A stretch of 45,246 nucleotides of DNA, taken from the NCBI GenBank assembly GCA_008638015.1, contig VTPD01000007.1, positions 1-45,246 of the forward strand, given 5' to 3'. Every line of letters begins with the position of its first letter. Positions within the stretch are counted from its first letter, which is position 1. Shown here piece by piece: positions 12,222-31,066 of this stretch. The notes under the pieces were generated by a model. That model was not told the DNA's origin and did no database searches. It saw nothing but the letters and a program-made list of their open reading frames with translations. The translations under genes were made by a program, and so were the position numbers. The DNA is from Pelagibacteraceae bacterium. Lineage in GTDB: Bacteria > Pseudomonadota > Alphaproteobacteria > Pelagibacterales > Pelagibacteraceae.

Positions 12222-13177
12222 TACTGAAGAGTTGAAGGAATTTTAAATGTAACATTTTCTGTTGCAGATGTAACTTCTTCAATTTGAACATTTCTAATTT
12301 TTTTAATTTTTTTTATTAAGTTTTGAATTAAGATTTCTGGAGCAGAGGCACCTGAAGATAAACCCAAATTTTTACAGTTTAATATTTGTTCTTCAGGAAA
12401 TTCTAGGTCAGTATGTAACAACAAACTATTTTCACAGCCATTTTTTTTTGCCACCTCTACCAGCCTTTGTGAATTGGATGAATTTCTACTTCCAATAATT
12501 AGAAATAAGTCGCACTTTGGTGCAATTAATTTTACGGCAGCTTGTCTGTTGGTTGTGGCATAGCAAATATCCTCTTTTATTGGCCCCTTGATTGTCGGGA
12601 ATTTATTTTGCAAACTTTGAATTATTTCTTTTGTATCATCAATAGATAGAGTTGTTTGGGTAATGTATGCATATTTTTTTTCCTTTAAGGGTAAAATTGT
12701 TTCTACATCTTCTTTATTTTGGATGAGTTCAATATTATTGTTATCGATTTGACCCATGGTTCCAATAACTTCTGGATGATTTTCATGTCCAATTAAAAAA
12801 ATGTGGTAGCCTTGTCTATTTAGCTGCTCTGCCTCACGATGCACTTTGGATACAAGAGGGCAAGTTGCATCAATATAAAGTAAATTTTTAAATTTTGCAT
12901 CATCAACTACTTTTTTGGCCACACCATGAGCAGAAAAAATTACAGGTCTGCTAGTATCTTCGATATCATCAAGCTCATCTACAAAAATTGTTCCCATTTC
13001 CTTAAGTTCTTGCACAACATGCTTGTTATGTACTATTTCATGGCGCACATATATTGGCGCTCCAAATTTTTGCAGAGATTTTTTTACAATTTCAACCGCT
13101 CGATCAACGCCCGCACAAAAACCTCTTGGACTAGCCAAATAAATTTTTAATTGATTATCTTTTTTTTGTTCTTCCAT
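12221..13177 (-). CDS. ispH: 4-hydroxy-3-methylbut-2-enyl diphosphate reductase (IspH/LytB)
   Basis: Final enzyme of the MEP pathway, yielding IPP and DMAPP with an oxygen-sensitive iron-sulfur cluster. The 318 residues carry the three cluster cysteines: C21 in RGFCAGVDRAVE, C106 in DATCPLVSKVHRE and C205 in DICYATTNRQ. Active-site histidines are seen in IVHNKHVV, SAHGV and GHENHPEV, and the terminal SGASAPE is conserved. Its start lies inside the end of blh (23-base overlap), so it is translated from the carotenoid/retinal transcript. IPP and DMAPP are the substrates from which those carotenoids are built. Confidence 0.97.
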   Translation of the reverse strand: MEEQKKDNQLKIYLASPRGFCAGVDRAVEIVKKSLQKFGAPIYVRHEIVHNKHVVQELKEMGTIFVDELDDIEDTSRPVIFSAHGVAKKVVDDAKFKNLLYIDATCPLVSKVHREAEQLNRQGYHIFLIGHENHPEVIGTMGQIDNNNIELIQNKEDVETILPLKEKKYAYITQTTLSIDDTKEIIQSLQNKFPTIKGPIKEDICYATTNRQAAVKLIAPKCDLFLIIGSRNSSNSQRLVEVAKKNGCENSLLLHTDLEFPEEQILNCKNLGLSSGASAPEILIQNLIKKIKKIRNVQIEEVTSATENVTFKIPSTLQ

Positions 13178-14135
13178 AAATATATTCTAACATAATATGA
13201 GGCAATGTAAGTGACGCAAGTCCAATAAAAATTATTTTTAACATTGCGTTACTAATAGAGAAATCATTACTTAAATAAAATAACATTATCACCGCAATTA
13301 AAAAAGTAGCTATTGTTAATGGCAATGAAAGAACCAGAAACCTTTTTAATCCTTGATTTAAGTCATTTGCATCTAGTTCATTAGCTAATGACAATATGTG
13401 TTTAGACGAGTGCATGAAGCAAAAGTAAATTGTAAAAGCCAATATAAGAGGTAGGTAATTAAAGATTAATATTATTGATAAATTCTCTATACAAATAATT
13501 AAAAAATATCTGAAATTTAATAATTTTAAATATAAATATAAAATTTGTAGAGAAATGAGAATAAATAAATTTAAGTAAAATAAATAATAAAAAAATTTGG
13601 GATTAAAATTCCATGTATCAATACCAAGCAATAAAATATCAATAAAATTTGCTGTCTCTTGATTATTTAAATAAAGTGGCGCCGATATTACAAGCAGACC
13701 CCTAAAAAAATAAATTAGTCGATTTAAGAAAAAGTTTTTATTAATGAATAATTCTAGATCTTCATGTCCAAAATGAAATGAGGCTACAATAAAAAAGAAT
13801 ATAATTGAAAGTAGAGGAAAGTTTAGCCAAATTAGCAATACTAAAAGGCTAGTTGCAATATACAAAGAATAAAAAATAAGTGGCCAATGTTTATTAAACT
13901 TCTTTTGAAATAATAATTTTCCTTTTTGATTATCAAGAGATCCATGAGAAACCCCAATAGTTGCAAGTAAAAAAAAACATATAATTAAATAAAAATTACT
14001 TTTGAGTTCTGAAAAATAATTAATAGAAATAGACAATATAACCAGTCCTAAATAAAATAAAAATTGAAAATAAAATTTTTGTTTCAATTTGATATTAGTA
14101 TCTAGCAAGCTTTTAGTCATAATTATTTTTTCCAT
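13155..14135 (-). CDS. blh: Beta-carotene 15,15'-dioxygenase, Brp/Blh family
   Basis: Cleaves beta-carotene symmetrically to retinal, the rhodopsin chromophore. The 326-residue protein is almost entirely membrane-spanning. Family motifs are GVSHGSLDNQKG (about 61-72), ASFHFGHEDLE, CFMHSSKHILSL and a C-terminal LTLPHIMLEYIYG; their histidines are the presumed iron ligands. The annotated ATG overlaps crtY by 13 bases. A second in-frame ATG at 14120 (MTKSLLD) lies 2 bases after the crtY stop and may be the true start. Blh strongly implies a retinal protein in the cell, but none is encoded in this window. Confidence 0.93.
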   Translation of the reverse strand: MEKIIMTKSLLDTNIKLKQKFYFQFLFYLGLVILSISINYFSELKSNFYLIICFFLLATIGVSHGSLDNQKGKLLFQKKFNKHWPLIFYSLYIATSLLVLLIWLNFPLLSIIFFFIVASFHFGHEDLELFINKNFFLNRLIYFFRGLLVISAPLYLNNQETANFIDILLLGIDTWNFNPKFFYYLFYLNLFILISLQILYLYLKLLNFRYFLIICIENLSIILIFNYLPLILAFTIYFCFMHSSKHILSLANELDANDLNQGLKRFLVLSLPLTIATFLIAVIMLFYLSNDFSISNAMLKIIFIGLASLTLPHIMLEYIYGRTKKR

Positions 14136-15247
14136 CTAAGTACATACTGAAATAAAGTTTTTGTAAAAAGGATTATAGGCATTGTAGAAATAATTTTAAT
14201 ATCTTCTATAAAATTACTCCTGTCAGTTAAAAAATTAATAATTGTTTTCGGGTTGTTTTTTTTAAATAAATTAAAAAAGATAGAGGGCATCCGTTTAGGA
14301 TTATTTCTAATAACATGTAACAATATCTCATCTAAGAAATTATATTTTTTCGGTCTAGCAGATGGTATGATAATTTTTTTATATTGTTTTAAGGATAATG
14401 CTAGTGATTGACTGAATGTTTGAATAGCCTGAAATGTATAGCCAGTACTTAATCTTGTTAAATTTCCTGCCGTCCCAATGGGCACATGTATGTTTGTTGC
14501 ATAATTAGTATTCTGAAAATTTAAAGGTATAACGCCAAATTCTGTAAAAGTGATCTTCCCTTCAATATTATGTAATTCTAGATATGTTTGAATTTCATCT
14601 TGGTACTCTCTCCTTGTTTTAATTTTATTAGAATACCAGGTTGTTTCTATCAGTGCTTTTTTGTTAGTGAAAGGAAGGATATAAAAAAAATGCAAACCAT
14701 TATCTTGCTTACAATCAAAATTCATAAGATCTAAAATTTTTTTGTTAAAAACTTCTTTTTTTGTTTCAATTTCTACACCAAAAAAATGTTGATAAATTGA
14801 GGATTTACTAGGTTTTGTTTTTACAAGACTGTCAAAAATTATTTTTCCTAAAAATAAGTCTTTATTAGTTTTAATAATATTTTTTTTAATATTTAAAATT
14901 TTACAGTTATTGACAATTTTAATATTTTTATTCTTATTTAAATTTTGAAGGATAAAATTATAGAATTTTTTTGAATCAATAGTCCGATAGGGGCTATGTT
15001 TGCAATCTATGTCTAGTTTTTGGTTTTTCCAAATAACATTAAATTTATTCCAGCTTTTAATTACGCACTTTGAAAAAAGATTATTATCAAAATCCCAGTA
15101 AGACCAATTTTTATCTCTATCATATTTGTTTCTTTTTTCTAAAATACATAGAGTTTTGTATTGCAAACAACCAAGCTTGTGCATGTGATATGCCAGAGAT
15201 AGTCCTGACAGTCCACCTCCAAGAATTATATAGTCAAATTCTTTCAT
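14123..15247 (-). CDS. crtY: Lycopene beta-cyclase CrtY
   Basis: Cyclises both ends of lycopene to give beta-carotene, the substrate of Blh. The 374 residues open with the FAD-binding fold DYIILGGGLSGLSLAYHM (about 5-22). Other typical segments are NWSYWDFD and the C-terminal GTAGNLTRLSTGYTFQAIQ (about 261-279). It overlaps crtB by 14 bases. The gene is very rich in Lys, Asn and Ile codons, reflecting base composition; nothing suggests it is broken. The bacterial CrtY family is the best fit. Confidence 0.93.
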   Translation of the reverse strand: MKEFDYIILGGGLSGLSLAYHMHKLGCLQYKTLCILEKRNKYDRDKNWSYWDFDNNLFSKCVIKSWNKFNVIWKNQKLDIDCKHSPYRTIDSKKFYNFILQNLNKNKNIKIVNNCKILNIKKNIIKTNKDLFLGKIIFDSLVKTKPSKSSIYQHFFGVEIETKKEVFNKKILDLMNFDCKQDNGLHFFYILPFTNKKALIETTWYSNKIKTRREYQDEIQTYLELHNIEGKITFTEFGVIPLNFQNTNYATNIHVPIGTAGNLTRLSTGYTFQAIQTFSQSLALSLKQYKKIIIPSARPKKYNFLDEILLHVIRNNPKRMPSIFFNLFKKNNPKTIINFLTDRSNFIEDIKIISTMPIILFTKTLFQYVLRWKK

Positions 15248-16085
15248 TTAATTTTATTTTAGTATTTATAAGATTGTGTTCTAGTTTCATATGACTGTGT
15301 TTTTCTTGTTTAAAAAATAAAAAAAATAAATCAAATAAAGAAAAAATTGTTTGTACTAGTTTTTCAAAATTATTTACATATATTTTTCCTGACTTGTCAT
15401 AATTATAGATATTATTTTTTTGCAAAATTTTTCGACCAATTTGCCTATAAACTCTTCTTGCAATTAATATAGCCAATCTACTTCTCAAGGGTATTTTTTT
15501 ACAAGCAACAAAAGCACTTTCATAAAATAATTCTGCTTTAAAAATTATTTTTTTAATCTCATTAAAATTATGTCGAATGTAATACCTGTTATTTTTTTTA
15601 TCTTCATTAACATCTCTAGCAATATTTGTAAGTTGCATTGCAATACCAAGGTCAATTGCTCCAAGCAAAGAATCCCTATCTTTTACTTGTAGTATTTTTG
15701 CCATCATCAAACCCACAGTTCCTGCAACTCTATAGCAGTATATATAAAGATTTTTTTTATCATGAATAATATGTTTGCTTTTTAAATCAGATTGTACTCC
15801 GTCAAATAAATCTAAAATAATTTTTTTAGAAATATTTTCTTTAATTAACAGGTACCAAATATTCTTGATAATTTTTGATGTATATTTTTTTTGTAAAAAT
15901 TGTTTTTTAAAATGTAAAAAATTAATTTTTTTTATCTTTAGATCTGAATGATCATCTACAATATCATCAACTGTTCTACAAAAATCATAAAGCATTGAAC
16001 ATTGTTGAAAAATTGTTTTTTTTAAAAAAAAACCAGCCCAGCTAAAGGATTTAGCATGTGTATGTAACAAGCTTTGTTTTCTCAT
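15234..16085 (-). CDS. crtB: Phytoene synthase CrtB
   Basis: Condenses two geranylgeranyl diphosphates to phytoene. The 283 residues show both aspartate-rich regions: CRTVDDIVDD (D40, D41, D44, D45) and NIARDVNEDKKNNRYYI (about 155-171). The N-terminal KSFSWAGFFLKK and the QLTNIARD signature are typical of the squalene/phytoene synthase family. It begins 1 base before the crtI stop region. A crtE gene for GGPP synthesis is not visible nearby, so the substrate must come from a prenyltransferase encoded elsewhere. Confidence 0.95.
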   Translation of the reverse strand: MRKQSLLHTHAKSFSWAGFFLKKTIFQQCSMLYDFCRTVDDIVDDHSDLKIKKINFLHFKKQFLQKKYTSKIIKNIWYLLIKENISKKIILDLFDGVQSDLKSKHIIHDKKNLYIYCYRVAGTVGLMMAKILQVKDRDSLLGAIDLGIAMQLTNIARDVNEDKKNNRYYIRHNFNEIKKIIFKAELFYESAFVACKKIPLRSRLAILIARRVYRQIGRKILQKNNIYNYDKSGKIYVNNFEKLVQTIFSLFDLFFLFFKQEKHSHMKLEHNLINTKIKLNERI

Positions 16086-16086
16086 T

Positions 16087-17550
16087 TTATAAAAGCTTAT
16101 CTAATACTTTTGCTGAGGAAAGAACCCCAGGCATTCCTGCACCAGGATGTGTACCTGCGCCAACAAAAAACATATTAGAAAAAATTTCCGATTGATTGTG
16201 AAATCTAAAATATGCAGATTGAGTAAATTTTGGCTGAATAGAAAATCCAGATCCGTGCAAAGTTGATAGTTCTTGTTCAAAATAATCTGGCGTTAAATAA
16301 AAATCACTTACAATATTTTCTCGTAAATTTGGCAAAGTGGTTTTTTCCATTTTTGCAATTACCAACTCTTTAAAACTATCTCCTTTTTCTTTCCAATTAA
16401 TACCAGACAAATTATTTGGAACTGGCACAAGGACGTAAAAAGCATCATGATTTTCAGGAGCCATACTGGGATCGGTTGCTGTGGGTCTATGTAAATAATA
16501 ACTAATATCATCTGTTAAAATTTTATCTTCAAAGATTTTTTTTAAGTGATCTTGGTATGAATTACCAAAGCAAATAGTATGATGGGCAATATTATTATAT
16601 TTTTTTTTACTTCCAAAATAATAAACAAATAAACCCATAGAATAATTCATTCTTTTAATTTTTTGATTAAATAAAAAATTATATTGATTATTTGATTTAA
16701 TTAAATTTTTATAAACGTTGGGAGGATCTGAATTACATATTAAATAATCACAATTAATAATCGAACCATTTTTTAATTGTATACCTGTAATTTTTTTATT
16801 TTTGGTTAAAAATTCAACAACTTCAGCATTCTTTAAAATTGTAATATCTTCTTCTTTCATAAGTTTTTCTAATGCTTCTACTATTTTTCCTGTCCCACCC
16901 ATCGCATAATGAATTCCCCATTTTTTTTCTAAAAATAAAATTAAGGCATAGATGGCAGTGGTACTAAAAGGGTTTCCACCAACAAGTAATGGATGCATAC
17001 TAAATATTCTTCTTAATTTTTCATTTGAAATATAACTAGATACTAATTGATAAACAGACTGATAACTTTTTAATTTTAACAAAGCTGGTATTTGCTTAAT
17101 CATAAATAAAAAATTATTAAATGGCTTGTCAGATAATTCTACAAATCCTTTGTTAAATATTTTTTCTGTAAACGTTATAAGTTTTTTGTAACCATTCAAA
17201 TCATTTGAAATCTTGCTAATTTGACTCTCCATCTCATTTTCATTACCTGAATAGTTAAACACTGAGCCATCGTTGAAAACAAATCTATACCATAGATCAA
17301 GAGGAACAATTTTAACATAATCCTCTATATTTTTTTTAAAAAGAGAGAATAATTCATTAAACAAATAGGGAGCGGTAACTACGGTAGGTCCAGCGTCATA
17401 GGTGAAACCATCTTTCGTAAAAACCCTGGCTCTACCACCTAAGTCTGCCTGTTTTTCTAATAATGTGACTTCATAACCTTTTGCCCGCATTCTCAATGCT
17501 GCAGCTATTCCGCCAAAGCCTGATCCAACTACAATTAGTTTATTCTTCAT
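16087..17550 (-). CDS. crtI: Phytoene desaturase CrtI (FAD-dependent)
   Basis: Introduces the double bonds that turn phytoene into lycopene. The 487 residues start with the dinucleotide-binding motif VVGSGFGGIAAALRM followed by YEVTLLEK (E31-32 region). The adjacent DLGGRARVFTKDGFTYDAGP and the C-terminal GAGTHPGAGMPGVLSSAKV are classic CrtI signatures. It is the promoter-proximal gene of the leftward crt-blh-ispH-thrB-rnhA string. Only 32 bases separate it from the divergent CDGSH gene, so its promoter must lie there or within that gene. Confidence 0.97.
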   Translation of the reverse strand: MKNKLIVVGSGFGGIAAALRMRAKGYEVTLLEKQADLGGRARVFTKDGFTYDAGPTVVTAPYLFNELFSLFKKNIEDYVKIVPLDLWYRFVFNDGSVFNYSGNENEMESQISKISNDLNGYKKLITFTEKIFNKGFVELSDKPFNNFLFMIKQIPALLKLKSYQSVYQLVSSYISNEKLRRIFSMHPLLVGGNPFSTTAIYALILFLEKKWGIHYAMGGTGKIVEALEKLMKEEDITILKNAEVVEFLTKNKKITGIQLKNGSIINCDYLICNSDPPNVYKNLIKSNNQYNFLFNQKIKRMNYSMGLFVYYFGSKKKYNNIAHHTICFGNSYQDHLKKIFEDKILTDDISYYLHRPTATDPSMAPENHDAFYVLVPVPNNLSGINWKEKGDSFKELVIAKMEKTTLPNLRENIVSDFYLTPDYFEQELSTLHGSGFSIQPKFTQSAYFRFHNQSEIFSNMFFVGAGTHPGAGMPGVLSSAKVLDKLL

Positions 17551-23871: not shown

Positions 23872-23882
23872 TTAAGGTGGTT

Positions 23883-24905
23883 ATGAGTCAATTATTATCA
23901 AAAAAAATTATTGCATGGTATCAAAAACACAAAAGATCCCTGCCATGGAGAACTCATAGAAATGCCAAGGATAGAGATTACAAAGTATTGATTAGTGAAT
24001 TTATGTTACAACAAACCAAAGTATCAACTGTAATTCCTTATTTTAACAAATTTTATAAAAAATTTCCCAACATAAGCAGTCTTGCAAAAGCACGTATCAC
24101 GAGTGTTTTAAAACAATGGGAAGGTCTTGGTTATTATCGTAGAGCGCGAAATTTACATTTAACCTCTAAAATTTTGAATAAGGATTTCGACTCAAGTCTG
24201 CCAGCAGATATCAATCAATTAAAAAATTTACCTGGAATAGGTGATTACACAGCGTCAGCAATAATGGCGATTGCTAAAAACAAATCATTCATTGGAATTG
24301 ACGGCAATGTAAAAAGAGTTCTGTCTAGAATTTTTGCAATTCAACAAAATAAAGACTTTATAAAAAATATAGAAAAAAAAATCATAACAATGAAGGTAAG
24401 TAAAAATTGTAGCGACCTCATGCAGGGTATTATGGAAATTGGCGCTTTGCTGTGCAGCCCAAAAAAACCAGATTGCCAAAAATGTCCTATTCAAAAGTAT
24501 TGTAAGTTTAGTTTTCGACCTAACGCAGAGATAATTCCATCAAGAAAAATTAAAGAGAAGTATTTTTATGCTTTTTTTATAGAAAAAAAAAATCAAATTC
24601 TATTTTCATATAATAAAAGTTTTAATTTTTTAAAAGAAATGATTAATTTACCTCTAGTGGAAATAGAGAAAAATCATAGCCTAACAAAAATAACAAAAAC
24701 ACTTTTTGATAAATTTGAAATAAAAAATACACCATTAAAAAAAATTAATTATAATATTTCTAATTTTAAAATGATAATTACAATTGTTTATTTAAAAAAT
24801 AACTTAAAATTCAATAATCAAAACTTTTTTTGGATTGATAAAAAAAAAATCAAACAAAAAATTTTATCAGTTTTGACAAAAAAATTAATTGAAGCATCTA
24901 ATTAA
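23883..24905 (+). CDS. mutY: A/G-specific adenine DNA glycosylase MutY
   Basis: Removes adenine mispaired with 8-oxoguanine. The catalytic Glu is in SEFMLQQTKV and the catalytic Asp in GIDGNVKRVLSR. The helix-hairpin-helix is LPGIGDYTASAIMAIA, and the iron-sulfur loop is C-x6-C-x2-C-x5-C in CSPKKPDCQKCPIQKYC (about 197-213). The C-terminal NUDIX-like recognition domain is present but degenerate. I use the ATG at 23883, preceded by AAGGTGG at 23874-23880; a GTG 6 bases earlier overlaps that site. It is 340 residues from this start, within family range. Confidence 0.95.
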   Translation: MSQLLSKKIIAWYQKHKRSLPWRTHRNAKDRDYKVLISEFMLQQTKVSTVIPYFNKFYKKFPNISSLAKARITSVLKQWEGLGYYRRARNLHLTSKILNKDFDSSLPADINQLKNLPGIGDYTASAIMAIAKNKSFIGIDGNVKRVLSRIFAIQQNKDFIKNIEKKIITMKVSKNCSDLMQGIMEIGALLCSPKKPDCQKCPIQKYCKFSFRPNAEIIPSRKIKEKYFYAFFIEKKNQILFSYNKSFNFLKEMINLPLVEIEKNHSLTKITKTLFDKFEIKNTPLKKINYNISNFKMIITIVYLKNNLKFNNQNFFWIDKKKIKQKILSVLTKKLIEASN

Positions 24906-24906
24906 A

Positions 24907-26061
24907 ATGAAAAAAAAAATTTCTATTGCCATTATTGGTTCGGGAATAGCAGGACTAACATTAGCTAATTTTTTGCATAAAGAAAAAAATTTGGAAATAG
25001 AAATATTTGAAAAAGATAATATAAAAAATTCATCTACAAGTGGAATTCAAATTTCTAATAATGCTAGAATAATTTTAAATAAAATTAATTTTAATCAATT
25101 TAATAAAAAAAATTATTGCAATATCCATTCTATCAAAATTTTTGATTACAAAAATTTAAGTAAGATTGCATCCTTAAATATGAATTTCTTTAATAAAAAA
25201 AATAGTGAATATTTTTGCATAGAAAGAAATAAATTAATTTCTTTTTTACTTAACCAGCTAAACAAAAATATTAAAATTCATACTAATAAAAAAGTAATAG
25301 AAATTAAAACTGAAGATACTAATCAAATATTTTTTCAAGACGGTCAAATGAAGAAATTTGATATTGTTGTTGCATGTGATGGTATTTTTTCAAACTTAAG
25401 AAAAAAATTATCGAAAGAAAATTTATCTTTTAGACATACTGCAACAGCATACAGGGGAATTATTAAAAACATGGGAAAAATTTATTCTGAAAAGGTTAAT
25501 TTATACTTGGGAAAAAAAAAACACTTAGTCATTTATCCAATTAACCAAAATTATGATTTAAGTTTTACAGGAATTACTAATGATCTTAATGGTCGATCTA
25601 AGCAAACATACCAGCATTTATCACGCAAAAATGAAATTAAGCATTTTTTACGAGATTTTCATCCATTAATCAGAAAGTCGATTGAAAAATGTAAAAATAT
25701 TTATACATGGCCAATTTATAGTCATTCAAATACTTTCTTTGGAAAAAAAAATGTTTTTTTTATTGGCGATTCTTCTCATGCCATGGCTCCTTTCCAGGCG
25801 CAAGGAGCAGCCCTGGCTATTGAAGATGCATATATTTTATCTAAATTAATAAAAAATAATCTCTTTTCTGTTAAGCAAATGGAAAAAATAAGGTTAAATC
25901 GAATTACAATGATAAAAAAAAGAGTTGAACGAAACTTGATAATTTTTCATCTGCATAACATAATTTTACAAAAGATAAGAAATTTTATTCTTAATATTGT
26001 TTGTAATAAAAAATTACTTGCGACGATGTTTTTTGGAAAAATTTTTAATTTTAAAGCTTAA
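24907..26061 (+). CDS. FAD-dependent monooxygenase (UbiH/salicylate hydroxylase-like)
   Basis: A group A flavoprotein hydroxylase of 384 residues. It has the N-terminal FAD fold IAIIGSGIAGLTLANFL, a central VVACDGIFSNLRKKL (the DG motif binding FAD and NADPH), and the C-terminal FIGDSSHAMAPFQAQGAALAIEDA. It starts 1 base after the mutY stop at a good ATG; a TTG inside mutY could extend it by six codons. The family hydroxylates aromatics, including ubiquinone precursors. Sequence and context do not tell whether this is a ubiquinone hydroxylase or a catabolic enzyme. It overlaps the ccrM stop by 4 bases. Confidence 0.85.
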   Translation: MKKKISIAIIGSGIAGLTLANFLHKEKNLEIEIFEKDNIKNSSTSGIQISNNARIILNKINFNQFNKKNYCNIHSIKIFDYKNLSKIASLNMNFFNKKNSEYFCIERNKLISFLLNQLNKNIKIHTNKKVIEIKTEDTNQIFFQDGQMKKFDIVVACDGIFSNLRKKLSKENLSFRHTATAYRGIIKNMGKIYSEKVNLYLGKKKHLVIYPINQNYDLSFTGITNDLNGRSKQTYQHLSRKNEIKHFLRDFHPLIRKSIEKCKNIYTWPIYSHSNTFFGKKNVFFIGDSSHAMAPFQAQGAALAIEDAYILSKLIKNNLFSVKQMEKIRLNRITMIKKRVERNLIIFHLHNIILQKIRNFILNIVCNKKLLATMFFGKIFNFKA

Positions 26062-27137
26062 TTACCAGATCTAATTTTTTGTCTTAAATAATCGATAGGC
26101 ATCATTTTGCCTTCAATATTAAAATGCCAGTAAGACCAACCATTACAAGAGGGTGCACCTTCAAGTTGAGCTCCAACTTTGTGAATAGATCCAGTAATAT
26201 TTTTGTAACCTATGCTTCCATCAGCCATCACTTTTGCTGCATATTTTTTTTTGTTATCATATAAAGTAATACCAGGCTCAATTATCCCACTTTCAACAAG
26301 CATTCCAAATGGTATTCTTTTTTCGTTTCTCTTTTTTTCAATAGTTTTTAAATATGGATCTTTTATCGGTCTAATTAATTCTATTCTTTTTTTTGCAACA
26401 TCAAGATATTTTTTTTCTTTTTCAATACCAACATAATTTCTACCTAATTTTTTTGCTACCGCACCAGAAGTTCCAGTACCAAAAAATGGATCTAAAATTA
26501 AATCACCCTTGTTAGTTGTCGCTAAGATTATTCTGTAAAGCAAGGCCTCTGGTTTTTGGGTGTTATGAGCCTTTTCTCCATTTGATTTACATCTTTCTTT
26601 TCCACTACAAATAGCTAAGTTCCAGTCAGATCTTAGTTGTTTATCATCATTAAAACATTTTAATGAATTATAATTAAATGTATATTTTGATTTATCCGAT
26701 TTAGCTGCCCAAATTAATGTTTCATGGGCATTAGTAAATCTTGTTCCCTTAAAATTTGGCATAGGATTTTTTTTATTCCAAATTACGTCATTTAGAATCC
26801 AAAAATTTAAATCTTGAATAATTTTACCTACTCTAAAAATATTATGATAGGTTCCAATCACCCATAAAGCTCCATCTTTTTTTAAAACTCTCTTACATTC
26901 TTTAAGCCATGCTGTGCTAAAATCATCATATGTTTGAAAGTTTTTAAATTGATCCCACTTATCATTAACAGCTGACACTTTGCTATTATCTGGTCTTTGA
27001 AGTTCTTTATCTAATTGTAAATTGTATGGTGGATCTGCAAAAACTATATCAAATGTTTCATCTGGTATTGATTTTAAGATTTCAATAGAATTTCCCTGAA
27101 AAATTTTATTTTTTAAATGATTTTTGTCTAATTTCAT
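26058..27137 (-). CDS. ccrM: CcrM-type adenine-N6 DNA methyltransferase (GANTC)
   Basis: Beta-class methyltransferase: catalytic DPPYNLQL (about 33-40) comes before the cofactor motif DPFFGTGTSGAVAKKLGRNYVGIE (about 216-239). The C-terminal 90 residues (from about 265) form the extra domain of CcrM enzymes, with GITLYDNKKKYAAKVMADG and CNGWSYWHF. CcrM methylates GANTC and times cell-cycle transcription in alphaproteobacteria. There is no restriction partner here, so it is an orphan methylase. I use ATG at 27137; the TTG two codons earlier is less likely. It follows rnhB after a 74-base gap holding a CtrA-like box. Confidence 0.94.
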   Translation of the reverse strand: MKLDKNHLKNKIFQGNSIEILKSIPDETFDIVFADPPYNLQLDKELQRPDNSKVSAVNDKWDQFKNFQTYDDFSTAWLKECKRVLKKDGALWVIGTYHNIFRVGKIIQDLNFWILNDVIWNKKNPMPNFKGTRFTNAHETLIWAAKSDKSKYTFNYNSLKCFNDDKQLRSDWNLAICSGKERCKSNGEKAHNTQKPEALLYRIILATTNKGDLILDPFFGTGTSGAVAKKLGRNYVGIEKEKKYLDVAKKRIELIRPIKDPYLKTIEKKRNEKRIPFGMLVESGIIEPGITLYDNKKKYAAKVMADGSIGYKNITGSIHKVGAQLEGAPSCNGWSYWHFNIEGKMMPIDYLRQKIRSGN

Positions 27138-27158
27138 ATTCAACCCAAGGTAGAATAA

Positions 27159-27211: not shown

Positions 27212-27811
27212 TTATTTTGAAGACAATATCTTGTGTATCGGTGCAAAAGATTGTCTGTGAAAAGAAGTTACTCCAAATTTTTTTATATTTAGCAAGTGTT
27301 CTTGAGTTCCGTAGCCTGCATTTTTTTCCCATCCATAGTTAGGATATTTTTTAGATAATAAGTTCATTAAATTATCTCTTAAAACTTTTGCAACTATAGA
27401 TGCGGCAGCTATAGAAGGGAATTTTTGATCACCCTTAATTTTGGGAATAATATTTTTTTTTGATTTATCAAAACTATATGGTCCATCTACAAGTATAGTG
27501 TTGTTTGTTAATTTAAAAGGATCAACTGCTCTTTTCATAGCTAATAAAGATGCATGCAAAATATTAAGTTTGTCAATTTCAAGTACACTTGCAACACCAA
27601 CCGAGTAATTGCAATTATTTATAATTGTTTTAAAGAATAATTCTCTATTCTTTTTACTAATTTTTTTTGAGTCGTTAATTCCTTCTATTTCAAAATTATT
27701 GTTAGCAAATAAAGCAACTGCAATTACAGGTCCGGCTAATGGTCCTCTTCCAACTTCATCAACACCTATAATATTTTTATATATTTTTTTCTCTTGTTCA
27801 AAAGTGATCAC
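27212..27811 (-). CDS. rnhB: Ribonuclease HII (GTG start)
   Basis: Removes ribonucleotides from DNA and RNA from hybrids. The 199 residues carry the acidic site DEVGRGPLAGPV (D18, E19), ILVDGPY in the middle, and GDQKFPSIAAASIVAKVLRD (about 127-146). YGWEKNAGYGTQEHL is also typical. No ATG lies before the first catalytic residues, so GTG at 27811 is the start. It sits 4 bases after the UDG-like gene. rnhB-ccrM adjacency is common in alphaproteobacteria. Confidence 0.96.
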   Translation of the reverse strand: MITFEQEKKIYKNIIGVDEVGRGPLAGPVIAVALFANNNFEIEGINDSKKISKKNRELFFKTIINNCNYSVGVASVLEIDKLNILHASLLAMKRAVDPFKLTNNTILVDGPYSFDKSKKNIIPKIKGDQKFPSIAAASIVAKVLRDNLMNLLSKKYPNYGWEKNAGYGTQEHLLNIKKFGVTSFHRQSFAPIHKILSSK

Positions 27812-27815
27812 AAAA

Positions 27816-28496
27816 TTATTTTAAGCCATCAATTTTTTTTTGTAGATTTTGCAAATCTACCCATGCATTTCTTTTTTGATTTTCATGACGTAGTAAAAAA
27901 CTTGGATGAAAAGATGGCAAAACTAATATACCTAAATTTTTAATATTTAAGTTTATCCATTTTCCCCTATCTGTGGTTAGATTGTATTTGTCGTCAAATA
28001 ATATTTTAAGTGCAAATGAGCCAAGCAAATAAATAATTGATGGTTTAACTAACAAAATATGATCTATTAAATACTTTTTCATTAGTTGTGCATCAGTGTT
28101 ATTGAGCACGTCTTTTTGATCTACTCTAAAATTTATTGCATTTGTTAGATAGACTTTATTTCTATCTAAATTAATTGCCCCAAGCATTTTATTTAATAAT
28201 TCTCCTTCTGCCCCTGTAAATAATTTCATTTCAGTTACATCATTTTTTGAGGGCATATCGCCAATAATCATTATTTTTGAATTTAAACTTCCATCAAAAA
28301 AAACAAACTGATTATCAATTTTATTAAATCTTAAAAATTTTTTTTTTATTTTAGAAAAAAGAAATTCTATATGCTCTTTTTGGGAACTAATATTTTTGCT
28401 GCTATTATTTTTTGTATATATTAAGCTGTTATAAATATCTGTTGAGTGATAATAATATTTAATATTTTCGTTTAAATGTTTATTTGTACTTTTCAT
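27816..28496 (-). CDS. Uracil-DNA glycosylase family-4-like protein lacking all cysteines
   Basis: A 226-residue protein with the uracil-DNA glycosylase superfamily core. The GE/DxPG motif is seen as IGDMPSKND (about 78-86), followed by LFTGAEGELLNKML and VYLTNAI (N119). A LLGSFAL strand and the terminal FHPSFLLR motif (H197) complete the pattern. Family 4 enzymes hold a 4Fe-4S cluster by four cysteines, but this protein contains no cysteine at all. Phe, Asn and Lys stand where the cluster ligands are expected. It may still excise uracil without the cluster, or have changed function. It starts 4 bases from the divergent TPR gene. Confidence 0.8.
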   Translation of the reverse strand: MKSTNKHLNENIKYYYHSTDIYNSLIYTKNNSSKNISSQKEHIEFLFSKIKKKFLRFNKIDNQFVFFDGSLNSKIMIIGDMPSKNDVTEMKLFTGAEGELLNKMLGAINLDRNKVYLTNAINFRVDQKDVLNNTDAQLMKKYLIDHILLVKPSIIYLLGSFALKILFDDKYNLTTDRGKWINLNIKNLGILVLPSFHPSFLLRHENQKRNAWVDLQNLQKKIDGLK

Positions 28497-28500
28497 AAAT

Positions 28501-30207
28501 ATGGGTAAAAAAACTTTTATACATCTTGTAATACTATCTTTTTTAATCTTTATAAATTTAAAAGATGCAAAAGCCTCAATATTTCTATCAAAAGAGAGCT
28601 TGTTAAATTCCTCTGACTATATTTCCAATTATTTAAAAGGAGCTTTATCTGAAAAAAATAACAATTATTTCCAATCAAAAAACTATTTTGCAAAGACTAA
28701 AAAACTAAGTTCTGAGCATTTAGAATATTCTAGACAATATGTAAGTTCTTTAGTTTTAAATGAAAAAATTAGTGACGCATTCACCTATATTCAATCCTTA
28801 GATCAAGCAGCACAAGAAAATTATTTATTTAATTTAGTACAAAGTATTTTTTTAATCAAAAATGGTAACTACTTGCAGGCAAAAAAAATACTTCGATATC
28901 CTGAAGATAATAAAAATTTAAATGATGAGTTGCTAAGCTACATCCATCTTTGGCTCGACACATCTTTTTCCAAGAAACAAGAATCTATTTTAAAAATAGA
29001 ACAATTTAAAAGTAATTTTCAAAATATAAAATTAATTCAAAGCATGTTAATTTATGATTATCTAGATTTTAAAGATTTATATAAACAAAAAGCTAATTTG
29101 GTTTTAAATCAACAACAGCTTGGTAGGTATCATTATTTTCATGTAGTTCATTTATTAAAGAATAATAATTTTATTGCAGCAAAAAAAATTATTAAAAAAC
29201 AACTTGATTATAATGCCAGTAATTTACTAATTAAACAAAGCTTTATTGAATTAGAAAATAAAAATATTAATTTTTTTATTAATTCTTTTGACTCTAGAAA
29301 TATAGATAATGGATTGTCAGAATTATTTTATTTATTTGCAAATTTAATGCAGCAGCAAGAGAATTTAGAGTTGTCTAAATTATATTTTTCAATTTCGCAC
29401 TATTTAAATCCAGATTTTTCTTCAAATTATGTTTTGAAATTTGAAAATTATCTTATTGAAAATAATTCTGATGCTTTAGAATTAGCTACTAAAATATCTT
29501 CGATTGGAAGTGAATTCGAGTGGTATGCAAATTATCAGTTATTGACTCATCCTACGATTTTAAATGAATCAAAAAAACAAATTATTTTACAGAAGTTGGA
29601 AAATGAAATTAAAAAAATAAAATTTTTTAAGTTTTCTAAAACTATGAATTTAGCTAATTACCACCGTAGTAAAAAAAATTACGATATTGCACTTAGTCTT
29701 TATAAAGACATTGAGGGTATCAAGGATATAGATAGGGTTGACTGGAGATATTACTACTTTAGAGGCATTTGTAACGAACGACTAGGTAATTGGATTGAAA
29801 GTGAATCTGATCTACTAAAATCTATAAGCTTATCTCCTAAACAATATACAGTCATAAATTATCTCGCTTATAGTTGGCTTGAAAGAAAAACAAATATTTT
29901 AAAAGCAAAAAAAATGCTTGAAGAGGCCGTAAGTTTAAGTCAGTGGGAGCATGGCTATATTATAGATTCATTGGGCTGGGCTTACTTCTTGCTTGAAGAC
30001 TACACTAAGGCAGAAAAACTTTTGCAACTTGCATATGAGAAAACGCCATATGAATTTGAAGTTTATGATCATTATGGAGATGTTTTGTGGAAAAATAATA
30101 AAAAAATACAGGCAAGATATGTATGGAAAAAAGCTATTAAATTAGATGGGGTAGAAAAAGAAAAAATAGATAAATTAAATCAAAAATTTTTAGATGGTAT
30201 TAATTAA
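28501..30207 (+). CDS. Exported tetratricopeptide-repeat protein
   Basis: 568 residues beginning with a signal peptide (MGKKTFIHLVILSFLIFIN, cleavage likely after KDAKA). The rest is helical with TPR units, clearest at about 385-555. There NYLAYSWLER, YIIDSLGWAYFLLEDYTKAE and YEVYDHYGD-type repeats follow a pattern common in alphaproteobacterial TPR proteins encoded next to ispE. It probably acts in the periplasm or at the envelope as a scaffold; no catalytic site is seen. It overlaps ispE by 14 bases, so the two are translated from the same message. Confidence 0.85.
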   Translation: MGKKTFIHLVILSFLIFINLKDAKASIFLSKESLLNSSDYISNYLKGALSEKNNNYFQSKNYFAKTKKLSSEHLEYSRQYVSSLVLNEKISDAFTYIQSLDQAAQENYLFNLVQSIFLIKNGNYLQAKKILRYPEDNKNLNDELLSYIHLWLDTSFSKKQESILKIEQFKSNFQNIKLIQSMLIYDYLDFKDLYKQKANLVLNQQQLGRYHYFHVVHLLKNNNFIAAKKIIKKQLDYNASNLLIKQSFIELENKNINFFINSFDSRNIDNGLSELFYLFANLMQQQENLELSKLYFSISHYLNPDFSSNYVLKFENYLIENNSDALELATKISSIGSEFEWYANYQLLTHPTILNESKKQIILQKLENEIKKIKFFKFSKTMNLANYHRSKKNYDIALSLYKDIEGIKDIDRVDWRYYYFRGICNERLGNWIESESDLLKSISLSPKQYTVINYLAYSWLERKTNILKAKKMLEEAVSLSQWEHGYIIDSLGWAYFLLEDYTKAEKLLQLAYEKTPYEFEVYDHYGDVLWKNNKKIQARYVWKKAIKLDGVEKEKIDKLNQKFLDGIN

Positions 30208-31066
30208 GCAAGATACAATCTTATCACCAGCCAAAATAAATTTATTTTTAAAAGTTATAAAAAAGCAATCTAATGGATTGCACCAAATTTATAGCTTAGT
30301 TTCACATGTCAATTTGTTTGATAAAATTTACATCTCCGAATCAAGTAAAGACCAAATTAAATTTATTGGAAAATTTTCTAAGAATATTTCTTTAAAAAAA
30401 AATTCAATTTTTAAAGTAATGCATTATTTGAGATTTTATTATCCTTTTTTAAGAAAGAAAAAATTCAATATTAAAGTTGAAAAAAATATTCCAAGCGGAG
30501 CTGGGTTAGGCGGGGGCACTTCAAATGCGGTAAGTCTTTTAAAATTTATTCTCAAAAAATATGAGTTACAATTAAATAAACATAAAATGAAATCAATTTT
30601 AAAAAAAATTGGTTCAGATTCTTATATTTTTCTTAATGACTATCAAAAAATAATTTATGGAACTGGAGATAAATATAAAAAATTTAAATCTAATTTAAAA
30701 TTAAATTTATTTTTAATTTTTCCTAATAAAAGTAATTTAACTCAATTAATTTATAAATCACACCAACGTATTAACGTAAAATATAATTTAACTTTAATAA
30801 TAAAAAGTTTACATAAAAATAAATTTAAATTTTTTGAAAAAAATCAAAATGATTTATTATTTTCTGCAATAAAAAATAATTCTAGACTAAAAAAATTATT
30901 TGAATTACTTAAAGCTAAATCACACCTTAAATTGCTGCAGTTGACTGGTAGCGGATCCTGTTGTTTTGTTGTTTTGCGAAATAAAAAAAACCTTTTAAAT
31001 TGTCAAAAAATCGTTAAAAAACACTGTAAAAGTTATTGGACAGCGGTAGTCAAAACTACTACATAG
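30194..31066 (+). CDS. ispE: 4-diphosphocytidyl-2-C-methyl-D-erythritol kinase IspE
   Basis: GHMP-family kinase of the MEP pathway. The substrate-binding N-terminus is SPAKINLFLKV (K14) with GLHQIYSLV. The ATP loop is PSGAGLGGGTSNA (100-112), followed by GSDSYIF (D142), and motif 3 is LTGSGSCCFV near the C-terminus. The 290 residues are normal. The usual GADVP around the catalytic Asp is altered to GSDSY, which may be lineage drift. With ispH it gives two of the MEP steps in this window. Confidence 0.93.
   Translation: MVLIKQDTILSPAKINLFLKVIKKQSNGLHQIYSLVSHVNLFDKIYISESSKDQIKFIGKFSKNISLKKNSIFKVMHYLRFYYPFLRKKKFNIKVEKNIPSGAGLGGGTSNAVSLLKFILKKYELQLNKHKMKSILKKIGSDSYIFLNDYQKIIYGTGDKYKKFKSNLKLNLFLIFPNKSNLTQLIYKSHQRINVKYNLTLIIKSLHKNKFKFFEKNQNDLLFSAIKNNSRLKKLFELLKAKSHLKLLQLTGSGSCCFVVLRNKKNLLNCQKIVKKHCKSYWTAVVKTTT

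Follow-up and report, generated by a model that had tools for sequence, protein, structure and literature searches.

The window (the whole stretch of DNA analysed, 45,246 nucleotides, which is the entire source contig in a Pelagibacteraceae genome of 1.09 Mb that is 95% complete) encodes a uracil-DNA glycosylase (UDG) homologue that belongs to the family-4 lineage and has a cysteine at none of the four ligand positions of the family's iron-sulfur cluster. The gene was inherited vertically and, by its position, is the orthologue of the alphaproteobacterial family-4 UDG, not a newcomer. The reading that we favour, with modest confidence and from comparison of sequences, is that its product is a vertically inherited, cluster-free family-4 descendant that probably works alongside a family-5 enzyme as a base glycosylase of weakened or re-tuned activity.

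An intact open reading frame without cysteine

The UDG open reading frame begins with ATG and encodes 226 aa with no cysteine (Table 1). The protein matched the PF03167 UDG profile (E 1.7e-25) and the family-4 profile TIGR00758 (E 1.1e-29), the latter at 103.3 bits and thus below the curated cut-off of 125.3 bits, while matches to PHROGs were weak (phrog_17 DNA polymerase, E 6.1e-10; phrog_4335, E 2.4e-7). The GDMP, TNAI and FHPS motifs, which the initial annotation had described as kept, were all found. Its naming of the gene as a Cys-free family-4-like UDG is borne out by these profile matches and by the predicted fold described below.

The initial annotation had also considered that a frame error might conceal a cysteine-bearing N-terminus. 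Upstream of the ATG the frame stays open for 40 codons; these contain no accepted start codon and one Cys, and they overlap the divergent TPR gene, whose ATG is at 28501. A similar UDG N-terminus was found at the same locus in five other genomes of the genus, with no Cys in four of them and one Cys in L006. The upstream codons and the five genus-mate N-termini rule out such a frame error.

Cysteine makes up on average 1.0% of residues in 48 window genes (ORFs of at least 120 aa, with one antisense ORF omitted), giving a probability of about 0.10 that 226 aa contain none, and six of the 48 genes are Cys-free. By bare count the Cys-free state is compatible with chance and not by itself beyond it, and the claim therefore rests on the four ligand columns instead. 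All four aligned cluster-ligand positions are replaced in the window protein, in line with the initial annotation, in an alignment that is gappy near ligand positions 1 and 2 in the window's genus (six genomes, labelled g1).

Table 1. Features of the UDG gene and its locus in the window
Feature	Position	Strand	Basis
Cluster-free family-4-derived uracil-DNA glycosylase homologue, 226 aa	27816..28496	-	ORF, profile, fold matches
Motif A GDMPSKNDV, residues 79-87 (family 4: GE[A/G]PGxxED); D80/M81/D86 for Glu41/Gly42/Glu47	28236..28262	-	Alignment; roles from the available part of PMC5387724
F93, equivalent of pocket Phe54, kept	28218..28220	-	Alignment
N119, equivalent of uracil-binding Asn80, kept	28140..28142	-	Alignment
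K128 where water-positioning Asn89 stands, Asn lost	28113..28115	-	Alignment
Motif B HPSFLLR, residues 197-203; retains catalytic His155 as H197	27888..27908	-	Alignment
L55 at ligand Cys2 position; Cys1 in alignment gap near residue 52	28332..28334	-	Alignment
F123 at ligand Cys3 position	28128..28130	-	Alignment
M139 at ligand Cys4 position	28080..28082	-	Alignment
RnhB (ribonuclease HII), conserved neighbour	27212..27811	-	Synteny; name by reading sequence
CcrM-like DNA adenine methyltransferase, conserved neighbour	26058..27143	-	Synteny; name by reading sequence
TPR protein, divergent neighbour, conserved at locus	28501..30207	+	Synteny; name by reading sequence
IspE, conserved at locus	30194..31066	+	Synteny; name by reading sequence
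MutY carrying the cluster motif CSPKKPDCQKCPIQKYC (C-x6-C-x2-C-x5-C); control for the iron-saving idea	23877..24905	+	Profile match

Predicted fold and family assignment

An AlphaFold model built from 34 sequences had a mean pLDDT of 85.1 and a pTM of 0.78, with residues 1-8 and 24-36 under 50. Foldseek matched it to 1ui1 (E 1.1e-15), and the best solved structures were all of family 4, namely 4zbx (Z 25.1), 1vk2 (Z 25.0) and 1ui1 (Z 24.4, 32% identity). The window protein has the predicted fold, the motif B HPxxLLR with the catalytic His, the uracil-binding Asn and the descent of family 4. It lacks the four Cys ligands, has GDMPS in place of the motif A GE(A/G)PG and scores too low against TIGR00758. 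Since three defining features of the family are missing despite this descent, we file the protein as a family-4-derived variant and not as a canonical member.

Loss of cluster ligands across the Alphaproteobacteria

The initial annotation regarded the cluster as near universal in family 4, and reviews, in the portions available, describe the family as FeS-cluster-containing (PMC8307549). We tabulated the ligand positions in 210 distinct family-4 sequences, with two family-5 proteins and identical duplicates excluded. The 36 alphaproteobacterial and 22 other Pseudomonadota rows from outside the order were the best scorers and so lean to canonical proteins; a second class sample comprised 40 proteins from outside the order, spread down the ranking among the matches listed (to E 1.7e-53). 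All 22 non-alphaproteobacterial Pseudomonadota had Cys at positions 1, 2 and 4, and 21 of them also had it at position 3. All 36 best-scoring Alphaproteobacteria outside the order had Phe, Tyr, Leu or Val at position 1 and Trp at position 3, and Cys2 and Cys4 were each kept in 35. In the spread sample, 38 of the 40 proteins were without the four-Cys set, Cys2 was present in 29 and Cys4 in 26, and eight had none of the four. The set is thus missing from 74 of the 76 sampled alphaproteobacterial family-4 proteins outside the order, and near universality does not hold in this class. The remaining two (L339 and L355, from G365 and G458, of one family) are four-Cys UDGs that group with those of other Pseudomonadota, and may be of foreign origin by transfer.

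Within the order, positions 1 and 3 were never Cys and positions 2 and 4 always Cys in f2, another family of the order (n=31). The window's family has no Cys at positions 1, 3 or 4. A check of the lineage neighbours, as the initial annotation had proposed, found Cys at position 2 in every row of g2, g3, g4, g5, g7, g9, g11, g12 and g13, and its loss in g8, g10, g6 and g1. Position 1 is mostly Phe or Tyr and position 3 mostly Trp across the class, and position 4 is Tyr, Phe, Leu or Met in the window's family. As read from these alignments, the distribution shows that ligand loss in the window's lineage was stepwise and nested, first of 1 and 3, then of 4 and then of 2.

The eight proteins of the spread sample with none of the four ligand Cys (L321, L325, L329, L332, L345, L348, L353 and L359) have a canonical active site. 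They rule out a ligand-free family-4 protein as unique to the window's lineage; complete loss arose outside the order too.

Iron-sulfur motifs retained in the genome

The initial annotation suggested that the ligands were lost as an iron-saving adaptation to an iron-poor ocean. The absence of any remaining ligand in the window's genus would fit this explanation, which we nevertheless regard as very improbable. Two ligands are missing class-wide, which places the probable loss of a conventional cluster well before the origin of the genus, and the eight ligand-free proteins among 40 lie outside the order. The genome also retains iron-sulfur motifs in two other repair proteins. Of 41 loci, 32 had a readable MutY, and its C-x6-C-x2-C-x5-C motif was kept in 32/32; of the other nine loci, L085, L092, L093 and L108 are cut at an end, L098 is a 200-base stub, and L082, L084, L087 and L088 are themselves situated elsewhere in the genome. 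The second protein is encoded by the one other UDG-superfamily gene in the genome (G000:C8, L002), which has four Cys and the motif GLAPAAHGGT, which we take to be the label of family 5. Four Cys were present in 16/16 family-5 loci read (of many matched), including the 3/3 read from g1. Retention of both the MutY motif and the family-5 cysteines means that iron saving does not explain the ligand loss.

A family-5-like match was found in five of the six g1 genomes and also in g4, g8, g10 and g14; none better than E 1e-50 was found in g2, g3, g5, g6, g7 or f2 genomes. The match shows one internal stop in G026 (HIMB114; G026:C1:1189020-1189694) and in some g4 genomes, possibly only at the match end. 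Genes for dUTPase and Xth are present.

Locus and descent

The gene order MutY-FAD monooxygenase-CcrM-RnhB-UDG-TPR-IspE recurs in the five genus-mate loci, as far as their contigs extend, and across much of the order. In the window's family (Pelagibacteraceae, SAR11), RnhB or TPR adjoins the UDG gene in 114/114 rows once the second copies found in the genus g6 are excluded, and in 0/7 of those second copies. In the one f2 locus that was opened (L104), UDG and TPR are separated by a 548-aa FAD oxidoreductase; its top NCBIfam match was PRK10015-like and far under the cut-off, and it reads, we presume, like an ETF-ubiquinone oxidoreductase. The CcrM-like methyltransferase is 82-85% identical within the genus, far above RnhB, UDG, TPR and IspE. 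Elsewhere in the window, at 13155-17550, are CrtI-, CrtB-, CrtY- and Blh-like carotenoid-type genes (named by reading), in keeping with the need of a proteorhodopsin-bearing bacterium for retinal.

In genus g6 the ancestral locus carries a deviant family-4 copy, and a second, short copy with a canonical site lies elsewhere and branches separately from it (L083, L085, L095, L096, L097; L082, L084). The residue at position 47 served to divide the g6 rows into positional and second copies, and the neighbours confirmed this division (11/11 and 0/7), five of the seven second-copy loci being only ~1.7 kb long.

In a tree of 101 sequences, g1 was monophyletic (100/94) and was joined successively by the g6 positional copies (100/96), g10 (100/97) and g8 (98/97), and the order as a whole was recovered at 100/96. 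Long branches meet in this tree, those of the g6 copies L085 and L221 being very long, and the sister relation of g1 and g6 depends on it alone. When the tree was rebuilt by a quick method without the g6 positional copies, g1 still grouped with g10 (support 99). The window protein is 42-45% identical to the other five g1 members, and an open UDG frame is kept in 6/6 genus genomes.

Some UDG families lack the cluster by nature, and the window protein, which shares their fold superfamily, could in principle belong to one of them (1, 2, 3, 6 or BdiUng-like), a placement by phylogeny that the initial annotation had named as grounds for abandoning its claim. We consider this improbable in the extreme. 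The best matches in both sequence and fold are to family 4 and UdgX, TDG/MUG structures gave only Z 14.5-15.2 against the window model, and synteny agrees with the tree, which nests the window protein inside family 4, families 1, 3 and 6 being outside the tree. BdiUng-like proteins are defined by a GQDPA motif and an extended motif-B protrusion. The window sequence has no GQDPA, and the BdiUng structure 5gn2 was far behind the best matches (TMq 0.50, 14% identity) in a comparison with the protrusion outside its scope.

Active-site changes at the conserved locus

In the Thermus thermophilus enzyme (Tth UDGa), according to the available part of PMC5387724, the pocket is formed by Glu41, Gly42, Glu47, Phe54, Asn80 and His155, and Asn89 positions the water. 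The same source lists E41D among mutants with substantially reduced activity, describes changes of G42 as damaging, gives a ~100-fold cost for E47A and a fall in k2 of over three orders of magnitude for H155S, and states that Glu47 blocks thymine. A canonical active site was present in 36/36 of the best-scoring class members and in 38 of the 40 in the spread sample, where L360 is without Asn80 and His155 and L338 without Asn89. The corresponding residues of the window protein are D80, M81, D86, F93, N119, K128 and H197. Throughout g1, the equivalents of Phe54, Asn80 and His155 are kept (6/6), Gly42 is replaced by Met or Phe (6/6) and Asn89 is kept in only two of six. In g10, Asp stands for both Glu41 and Glu47 in 8/8. 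In the large sister genus, g4, Asn80 is replaced by Tyr in 35 of 50 sampled proteins, and in these same 35 His155 is replaced by Asn (25) or Ser (10); the 10 His-less g4 sequences included in the tree group as a single clade (100/100). His155 is lost in 10 of the 11 g6 positional copies.

One His- and Asn-less g4 protein (L181:400-1131, from G029) passes the TIGR00758 family-4 cut-off with 162.3 bits. The curated family score thus passes a His-less protein yet fails the His-bearing window protein (103.3 bits).

With Glu41, Gly42 and Glu47 equivalents changed and Asn89 lost, the window protein could be nearly inactive, by analogy with the T. thermophilus mutants. A related possibility is that it is a pseudo-glycosylase that only binds, recognising uracil, abasic DNA or a protein partner without excision and playing a structural or regulatory role. 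Consistent with this are the three changed pocket positions in motif A, the loss of Asn89 from four of six genus members, the same-locus relatives that lack the catalytic His (35/50 sampled g4 and 10/11 g6) and the continued constraint on His-less g4 genes (below). Against it, His197, Asn119 and Phe93 are invariant in 6/6 g1 members despite an identity of just 42-45% between the window protein and the other five, a pattern difficult to account for unless the protein is catalytic, and we hold a binding-only role to be possible but doubtful.

Selection and the second UDG

We estimated dN/dS with a simple Nei-Gojobori script for pairs with dS between 0.05 and 1.5 in nine groups. The median was 0.373 in g1 (15 pairs in range), higher than in any other group; the deep pairs shown gave 0.41-0.46 and the two recent pairs 0.12 and 0.06. 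Medians were 0.176 for His-less g4 (259 pairs), 0.20 for g4 with His, 0.201 for the g6 positional copies, 0.110 for g2 and 0.119 for g5. The UDG genes of all compared groups are constrained, most weakly in g1, where the median points to relaxed constraint.

Another intact-looking UDG (family 5, or in g6 the second family-4 copy) accompanies 52 of 60 deviant positional copies, and family 5 is present with 17 of 85 non-deviant ones, when family-5 genomes are counted as those with a match better than 1e-50, eight g6 genomes as having a second copy and f2 as family-5-free. The deviant cases represent only two lineages, so this co-occurrence is suggestive and not a test. Against a hand-over of repair, family 5 is also present in 14 of 15 g4 genomes with an intact His, and in g8. 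Resting on few independent events, a hand-over to family 5 is likewise only suggestive.

The same figures bear on the view that the gene is decaying towards loss, its role having passed to a second UDG. The company of another UDG, the fast divergence (g1 median 0.373) and the long-branched g6 copies speak for decay. The frame is nevertheless open in all six genus genomes, dN/dS is low in the two recent pairs and the locus is conserved, so we think this outcome unlikely.

Proposed function

We return to the favoured reading, of a cluster-free enzyme that retains some glycosylase function. We infer that the [4Fe-4S] cluster acts as a structural clasp, which bulky hydrophobic side chains have putatively replaced, and that base-excision chemistry would be independent of it. 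In the available part of PMC5295032, family-4 activity was only partly lowered when cysteines were disrupted. H197 would stabilise the leaving base, N119 would read the uracil edge and F93 would lie in the pocket. The window protein has most likely retained excision of uracil or a related pyrimidine, probably more weakly or with a changed choice because the equivalents of Glu41, Gly42, Glu47 and Asn89 have become Asp, Met/Phe, Asp and variable. Asp at the Glu47 position is predicted to give more tolerance at base C5 and may admit 5-substituted uracils. Most uracil repair is probably done by the four-Cys family-5-like UDG, and constraint on the window UDG would have been relaxed as a result.

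More tentatively, the Pelagibacteraceae family-4 UDG may be in the course of conversion, at a fixed locus, to a non-excising DNA-binding protein. This conversion would be complete in most of g4 and half-way in g1, with repair left to the iron-sulfur family 5, and the ligand loss would have begun before most of the class diversified.

The role of the family-4 cluster is still being asked, and the alphaproteobacterial proteins appear to offer a wild-type series in which to test it, from two ligands to none with catalytic residues intact. The later steps show active sites being lost while selection goes on, in the SAR11 bacteria, which are abundant in the ocean. By title or abstract we found no published report on alphaproteobacterial family-4 cluster loss or on dead SAR11 UDGs, most subscription papers being outside the scope of the search.

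Comparison with known uracil-DNA glycosylases

T. thermophilus UDGa (1ui0/1ui1) shares with the window protein the fold (Z 24.1-24.4, 32% identity), the uracil-binding Asn, the pocket Phe, the catalytic His and HPxxLLR. The window protein differs from it in having no ligands, GDMPS for GE(A/G)PG, no Asn89 and an extra low-confidence N-terminal stretch. Closer in descent are the alphaproteobacterial family-4 UDGs outside the order (such as L114), which belong to the same family-4 branch and have ligands 1 and 3 replaced; unlike the window protein, they mostly keep Cys2 and Cys4 and mostly have a canonical active site. The HIMB114-type g10 orthologue (L243/L080) shares the locus, ~44% identity, Asp for both Glu41 and Glu47 and the absence of ligand Cys. 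It differs in keeping Asn89 and the motif A Gly44, each in 8/8.

Two other branches of the superfamily have a similar fold. UdgX of Mycobacterium smegmatis (Z 20.8-22.4) is characterised, in the available part of PMC10359453, by a GEQPG motif and a KRRIH loop with the cross-linking His109. Both the motif and the loop are absent from the window sequence, ruling out UdgX (family 7) identity. The family 5 enzyme UDGb (2d3y) shares the superfamily fold (Z 17.7), but its GLAPAAHGGT-type motif and four Cys are absent from the window protein, and the family-5-like gene of the genome is a separate one.
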